From NCBI GenBank assembly GCA_003615045.1, contig ML014122.1:161126-225125 (forward strand): a stretch of DNA of 64,000 bases, read 5' to 3'. Shown here piece after piece: positions 50,595-51,716 of the stretch. Source of the stretch: Caulochytrium protostelioides (lineage: Eukaryota; Chytridiomycota; Caulochytriomycetes; Caulochytriales; Caulochytriaceae). Both the position numbers and the translations under genes were made by a program. The first letter of the stretch is position 1; each line of letters begins with the position of its first letter. The notes beneath the pieces were generated by a model. That model did not search any database. It was not told the origin of the DNA and worked only from the letters and a program-made list of their open reading frames with translations.

Positions 50595-51716
50595 TTACAG
50601 CTTGTTGAAAGCGGCGATGTCGACCGACTGGACGTAGTCCGAGAGGTCGGTGCAGATCTGTTCAATGAGGTCGTCGGTGGAGACCTTGTCGTCCTCAATG
50701 ACACAGGTGATCTGGAGCTTCTTGATGCCGTAGCCGACGGCGACGAGCTTCTTGGTACCCCAGACGAGACCGTCCATCTGGACGGCGGAAACACCGTTCT
50801 GGAGAGCCTCCATGTCGGTCTCGTCGTCCCAGGGCTTGACGTCAAAGATGACCATGGACTTGGCAGCGGCCTTGGGCTTCGCCGACTTCTTGGCGTTGTA
50901 CGCGGCGAGACGCTCCTGCTTGATCTTCTCGGCCTCCTCGTCGACTTCCTCGTCGTCCGAGCCGAACAGGTCGATGTCGTCCTCGTCCTCCTCAGCAGCC
51001 TTGGCTTCCGAAGGGGCAGCGCCCTCCGGGCCGTAGGCCGAGGCGTCCTTCTTCTCACCCGACCAGGCCTTCTCGTCGACAGACTTGTCAGCGACGAGGT
51101 TGGCGATGTGCGAATACCAGCGGGCGGCGTGGGGGTGGGCCTTGGCGTCCGGGGCCTTGGCAACAGCGGCGAAAACCGACAGGTCGGCCTGCGACGGGGT
51201 GTAGCTGATCGAATGAATCCATCGATGGCACATGAAATAAACAACCAAGAGAAAAGAGTGAGCAAAACGTGGTTTTGGAGCAACGCATCGGAAAATCATG
51301 AGAAGGGACGTGGAACGCGAAGGATATCTGCAATCAGGTTCCCCTCTCCTCGCCAGATGGGAGGAGCAAAGAACATTGGAAAAAAAGGGTTTCGTCACGT
51401 TGTGACCATCTTGAAATGGTCTCGGAAACACGGACCAATATAAGGGATCATCATGTTTAAACAGATATCCTCCGTGCCACGTCGTCCGACACGGCAGGGA
51501 GAGCATGGTAAAGGGATGAAATCTCTCCGCAGGGAAAAGACCACCGTACCTTGCTTTCCCGCCAGGATGTCGCGGGTGCGGGGCAGAGCCAAATCAAGAG
51601 AGAGCAGGCTCAGTAGCTATCAAGCAAGAAACTTACCCGGTGATGTACGAGCGCGAGGCCATGAACTCGTTGAGCTGGGCAACGCCAGCGGCGGTGTCAA
51701 GAGCAGAGAAACCCAT
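50595..51716 (-). CDS. EFB1: Translation elongation factor 1-beta (eEF1B alpha), two exons
   Basis: This is a 229-residue guanine-nucleotide exchange factor that recharges eEF1A with GTP. Exon 1 (51637-51716) encodes [20 protein letters not shown] and SRSYITG. The intron 51205-51636 (GTAAGT..CAG, 432 nt) splits the Gly codon. Exon 2 (50595-51204) continues [14 protein letters not shown]. The GST-like N-terminal part, the acidic linker ([20 protein letters not shown]) and the C-terminal exchange domain ([40 protein letters not shown], and the end [12 protein letters not shown]) are all present, and the length is normal. A TATA box lies 217 bp upstream, fitting high expression. The intron hosts a probable C/D box snoRNA. 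The frame's run-on into the intron (to 51506) is not coding. Confidence 0.95.
51321..51471 (-). ncRNA. Probable intronic C/D box snoRNA (U51/snR39-like guide)
   Basis: Inside the eEF1B intron, on the same strand, a perfect 10-bp terminal stem (AGGATATCTG pairing with CAGATATCCT) encloses a consensus C box ATGATGA (51448-51454) and D box CTGA (51334-51337). Between them lie a D'-like CCGA (51422-51425), a 6-bp hairpin GACCAT/ATGGTC, and a C'-like GTGACGA (51392-51398). Directly 5' of the D' box is a guide, TTGGTCCGTGTTTC, exactly antisense to GAAACACGGACCAA, a segment I recall as near-universally conserved in large-subunit rRNA. It should direct 2'-O-methylation there. Which nucleotide is modified depends on the exact D' box and is not settled. 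From memory, human EEF1B2 introns also host SNORD51. Confidence 0.8.

Follow-up and report, generated by a model that had tools for sequence, protein, structure and literature searches.

A very probable U18 box C/D snoRNA gene in an eEF1B intron of the chytrid Caulochytrium protostelioides

Described U18 snoRNAs and their host genes

The rRNA target of U18 is tabulated as A649 in yeast and A1313 in human, and that of snR39/U32A as A807 in yeast and A1511 in human (PMC3542256). The numbering of the U18 target varies among sources: PMC3938493 has A649/C650 in its DNAzyme methods and A647/C648 in other places, and PMC3511168 gives Am647. In S. cerevisiae, snR18 is described as lying inside the TEF5/EFB1 intron (PMC2705663, PMC3938493), and in C. 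albicans inside the EFB1 intron (PMC2926782). The N. crassa U18 homologues, CD46A and CD46B, are reported as two intronic copies of 89 nt that are D'-directed to 26S Am635 (PMC2780460), and the U18 of F. graminearum is a putative intronic snoRNA, the level of which drops on deletion of the debranching enzyme (PMC9606315). In chicken, U18 is placed in introns 2, 5, and 6 of RPL4 and U51 in intron 3 of EEF1B2, with A1263 and A1459 of 28S rRNA as the respective targets (PMC2653536). Hoeppner and Poole (2012, PMC3511168) concluded that intronic snoRNA locations are not traceable to the last eukaryotic ancestor, and proposed ongoing mobility among broadly expressed genes. A U18 in an eEF1B intron is therefore already known from baker's yeast, and the locus described below would add a chytrid member; among the matches listed for literature terms that included U18/snR18 with eEF1B/EFB1, no title dealt with chytrid snoRNAs.

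The eEF1B intron and the elements within it

The window, the whole 64-kb stretch of C. protostelioides DNA analysed here, contains an eEF1B gene, the features of which are collected in Table 1. Joining both flanks of the intron recovered the eEF1B N terminus in translation, and the joined translation matched Pfam EF1_GNE and EF-1_beta_acid (acidic region), as well as PDB eEF1B chains, among which 5dqs_D (query residues 1-87) crosses the exon junction. The best public protein match to the product is that of C. protostelioides itself, with 100% identity. The snoRNA candidate is located in the middle of the intron and in the same sense as eEF1B (minus strand). ARAGORN found no tRNA gene in the window (1-64000).

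Table 1. Positions of the eEF1B exons, the host intron, and the snoRNA elements in the window
Feature	Positions	Strand	Description
eEF1B exon 1, coding part	51637..51716	-	80 nt; codons 1-26 and two bases of codon 27 (Gly)
Host intron	51205..51636	-	432 nt, GTAAGT...CAG, phase 2, Gly codon 27
eEF1B next exon sequence, as far as translated	50601..51204	-	gene runs on past 50601
Distal external stem, 5' arm GACGTGGC	51476..51483	-	8 pairs with 51316-51307
Proximal external stem, 5' arm	51461..51474	-	14 contiguous pairs with 51331-51318, two wobble
C box ATGATGA	51448..51454	-	exact to RTGATGA
Antisense element TTGGTCCGTGTTTC	51425..51438	-	complementary to 25S/28S rRNA GAAACACGGACCAA
D'-like box CCGA	51422..51425	-	one mismatch to CTGA; CUGA in Rfam SNORD18 consensus
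Possible 6-bp D'-C' hairpin	51404..51421	-	GACCAT 51421-51416 / ATGGTC 51409-51404
C'-like box GTGACGA	51392..51398	-	one mismatch to RTGATGA
37-nt hairpin between C' and D	51338..51374	-	in minimum-energy and centroid folds
D box CTGA	51334..51337	-	exact
Proximal external stem, 3' arm	51318..51331	-	partner of 51474-51461
Distal external stem, 3' arm	51307..51316	-	partner of 51483-51476

The original prediction of an intronic C/D snoRNA in eEF1B, guiding to large-subunit rRNA, was borne out as to boxes, stem, and guide. The consensus C and D boxes stand at the positions claimed on the sense strand of the intron, both exact and joined by the 14-bp stem, and the D'- and C'-like boxes are also present in the sequence where they had been placed, together with the 6-bp inverted repeat. 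Each internal box is one base off its consensus, which we count against the U18 reading given below, and the first C of the D'-like CCGA is also the last base of the antisense element. A 37-nt hairpin (51374-51338), of which the earlier account made no mention, adjoins box D and takes up the site of a guide 5' of D. Because the hairpin fills that place, one D'-directed function would be expected for the Caulochytrium snoRNA; N. crassa U18 is described as D'-directed too (PMC2780460).

The flanks of the element form a long stem, in which a small internal loop separates the 14-pair proximal helix from the 8-pair distal helix. Since boxes C and D sit 6 and 2 nt away from it, respectively, the stem is of the external, not the usual adjacent terminal type. 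A perfect 10-bp stem had been predicted; that pairing (51470-51461/51331-51322) does exist, but it includes one T.G wobble, and its length was understated (14 + 8 pairs). The predicted energy of the 40-nt flank duplex is -38.3 kcal/mol, in comparison with a shuffled mean of -18.5, and surpasses that of 2000/2000 shuffled pairs; the fold z-scores are -3.70 (150 nt) and -4.05 (191 nt). The minimum-energy folds, which like the centroid folds take no account of bound proteins, pair the C box and the guide region internally, a point also counted against the U18 reading. The D'-C' hairpin is absent from these folds, the guide region being paired otherwise, and is seen in the centroid folds, where most of the guide is left open.

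Chance occurrence was controlled with 5000 dinucleotide shuffles of the intron. The combination RTGATGA..CTGA with a stem of ≥9 bp arose in 1/5000 shuffles (37/5000 with a stem of ≥6 bp), and a 14-mer able to pair fully within the 29-nt segment around the yeast target in 0/5000 (54/5000 for a 10-mer). Both strands of the window hold 28 RTGATGA sites, only 1 of which has a CTGA 50-166 nt on together with a stem of ≥9 bp. Both the shuffling and the comparison within the window argue against a chance origin. Furthermore, the antisense 14-mer has a single occurrence in the 20.9 Mb assembly, inside the eEF1B intron.

Guide register, family assignment, and rival readings

A 14-nt element exactly antisense to conserved large-subunit rRNA had been claimed to precede the D'-like box, and it was located at 51438-51425. 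Counting 5' from D', the fifth base is the T at 51430, and its partner in 25S rRNA is, in yeast numbering, A649; yeast A649 falls within GAAACACGGACCAA, and its equivalent is the A in GAAACACGG. The guide thus shows what is expected of U18, namely 14 exact pairs with the A649-equivalent chosen by the D'+5 rule, and the guide-target duplex is predicted at -23.5 kcal/mol. The target used here is taken from yeast rRNA (...CUUGAAACACGGACCAAGG..., deduced from the DNAzyme arms aimed at A649 in PMC3938493). Apart from the guide, the exact U18 target was not found in the 20.9 Mb assembly, and LSU rRNA was undetected there by one conserved pattern with one mismatch allowed; the rDNA may be absent from this assembly, may have been withheld from it, or may be divergent.

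In an Rfam search of the intron at a relaxed threshold, SNORD18 (RF00093) gave the best match (27.7 bits; E 0.0039) among six families matched up to E 10, the runner-up having E 0.23. The alignment covers the C box, spacer, guide, and D'. Four results of the Rfam searches are counted against the U18 reading: the 27.7 bits lie below the RF00093 gathering score of 41 bits, which is the curators' detection threshold and not a biological criterion; the C'/D half of the model and its short terminal stem do not fit; the E-value over the whole genome is no better than 0.046; and in the prokaryotic controls at least 10 of 14 genomes have SNORD18 matches at E ≤ 10, none of them above the cut-off. At the gathering threshold, no family is matched anywhere in the window. 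As this threshold can miss an expanded member of SNORD18, the Caulochytrium U18 would easily be left unannotated. Throughout the 20.9 Mb assembly, the SNORD18 match is the sole one among those listed (E 0.046), in a search that scored 59/1193 candidates and hence gives counts as lower bounds. Local alignment to the Entamoeba U18 homologue (PMC3542256) scored 33 over the C box, guide, and D'; none of 500 mononucleotide shuffles exceeded 28, the highest score they reached, and three further Entamoeba snoRNAs scored 27, 19, and 17. Pattern scans returned 3 + 3 stretches from viral contigs and 19 from prokaryote genomes, all of the latter with bacterial titles; the sequence was inspected for the first three, two of them identical, and the rest are taken as chance. 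By script, 0 of the fetched loci carry the C box, guide, and NGA together. We also count in favour of the U18 reading the location of yeast and Candida U18 in this very host gene, and the reported drop of F. graminearum U18 on deletion of the debranching enzyme. Based on the Rfam best match, the A649 register, and the Entamoeba U18 alignment, the element is assigned to U18, not U51, and is very probably the U18 box C/D snoRNA gene of Caulochytrium, encoded on the sense strand of the intron and guiding methylation of the A649-equivalent.

The original proposal for the family was U51/snR39 (alternatively U80/snR60), with a tie to eEF1B that, given homology, would predate the split of animals and fungi. 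The guide fits the U18 site A649, not A807, and the Rfam search of the intron suggested at the time for SNORD51/snR39 brought up neither among the six families up to E 10; U51/snR39 membership is rejected on both grounds, even though U51 does occupy intron 3 of EEF1B2 in chicken. U18 and U51 of chicken are separate snoRNAs with differing targets and hosts (PMC2653536). Since chicken U18 is hosted by RPL4, the coincidence in animal eEF1B concerns a different snoRNA, and the proposal that guide and host have been linked since before that split is not supported; we give this reading virtually no chance. That the intron merely retains by chance a decayed or silent snoRNA copy is very improbable. 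The single mismatches in D' and C' and the Rfam score under the cut-off are what such a copy would show, but C, D, and the 14-nt guide are exact, the stem is long, and the assembly yielded no further SNORD18 among the matches listed and no second exact guide. A structure that brings the splice sites of a long intron together, and so aids splicing without being a snoRNA, could account for a strong hairpin in the middle of the intron, but it leaves boxes C and D and an exact, in-register U18 guide unexplained, and its probability is negligible.

Proposed maturation, host link, and comparison with known systems

The following pathway for the Caulochytrium U18 is drawn from established C/D biology. 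The eEF1B pre-mRNA would be transcribed and spliced, and the flanks of the element would pair into the long external stem, so that boxes C and D meet as a kink-turn to be bound by the C/D core proteins, which are fibrillarin, Nop56, Nop58, and Snu13. After debranching of the lariat (or cutting of the stem), exonucleases would trim the ends until a particle of some 130 nt is left, in which the antisense element before D' would pair with 25S rRNA and fibrillarin would methylate the ribose of the A649-equivalent. According to a review (PMC12205218), U74 is producible without splicing via a pathway that requires an extended external stem; by analogy, a similar splicing-independent release may be conceivable for the Caulochytrium U18.

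The pairing of U18 with eEF1B is supported as common to three fungi, spanning ascomycetes and a chytrid, as far as the cited sources describe the two yeasts. As far as these sources show, the host link is confined to fungi and does not reach animals, and the placement of U18 in eEF1B may be old within fungi. We tentatively propose, as a quite possible though uncertain history, that U18 has stayed in one eEF1B intron since the ancestor of chytrids and ascomycetes, near the fungal root, and that the chytrid gained the long stem and maybe a splicing-free release. The other course, in which U18 entered the eEF1B intron separately in chytrids and yeasts by convergence on a highly expressed gene, seems unlikely to us, given that S. 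cerevisiae, C. albicans, and Caulochytrium all carry it in one host gene. The coding part of exon 1 of the Caulochytrium gene is 80 nt long and the intron is in phase 2, and the first exon of yeast EFB1 is 80 nt as well; the intron position would then be identical, which would favour descent over convergence. On the side of separate entry stand the snoRNA mobility proposed by Hoeppner and Poole (PMC3511168), the other snoRNA held by chicken eEF1B (PMC2653536), and the two intronic U18 copies of N. crassa, the host of which is not given in the relevant passages of PMC2780460.

A second yeast link was also sought, as TEF4 (eEF1B-gamma) of yeast hosts snR38 (PMC2705663). An Rfam search of the Caulochytrium eEF1B-gamma gene up to E 5 gave four matches, none of snR38 type; a 13-mer of the Entamoeba snR38 guide has no copy in the assembly, and SNORD24 gave three weak matches in the assembly (E 1.3 to 5). 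That this second link was not seen in the Caulochytrium assembly counts somewhat against vertical descent and for convergence, and the data so far do not widen the U18 link into a general conservation of hosts between yeast and chytrid.

The intron of the eEF1B-gamma gene (PF00647; contig 98, locus 667-973) contains an exact ATGATGA (739) and CTGA (841), with a 6-bp stem around them at gaps of 2 and 0 nt and a long hairpin inside. From its sequence, this element is a possible candidate C/D snoRNA, fitting no Rfam snoRNA family.

The Caulochytrium U18 provides a chytrid data point on whether snoRNA-host pairs stay or drift. If the U18-eEF1B link is common to the yeasts and the chytrid, it would represent one stable pairing near the fungal base, and if vertical descent is true, the link has lasted far longer than the model of ongoing mobility would predict.

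In comparison with the Rfam SNORD18 model, the Caulochytrium U18 aligns from the C box through the spacer and guide to D', but its C-to-D span is 121 nt, as opposed to 71 model positions, an additional hairpin precedes D, and an external stem stands where the model has a short terminal one. It resembles S. cerevisiae snR18 in the A649 target, the eEF1B host, and the intronic location (PMC2705663, PMC3938493); C650 is additionally assigned to the yeast snoRNA (PMC3938493), and the likeness of target given here concerns A649. In contrast to the strong Caulochytrium stem, the yeast flank stem, built from published deletion-primer sequences with the cassette tails removed by judgement, is weak (-16.2 kcal/mol; 267/2000 shuffled pairs are as good), and an external stem common to both is therefore not claimed. 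The likeness to C. albicans snR18 lies in the snoRNA name and the host gene (PMC2926782). CD46A and CD46B of N. crassa are likewise intronic, D'-directed U18 snoRNAs, with two copies of 89 nt where Caulochytrium has one locus among the matches listed. Finally, chicken U51 shares with the Caulochytrium snoRNA its C/D class and an intronic position in the host orthologue (EEF1B2), and differs from U18 in its 28S target, hence belonging to a different family.
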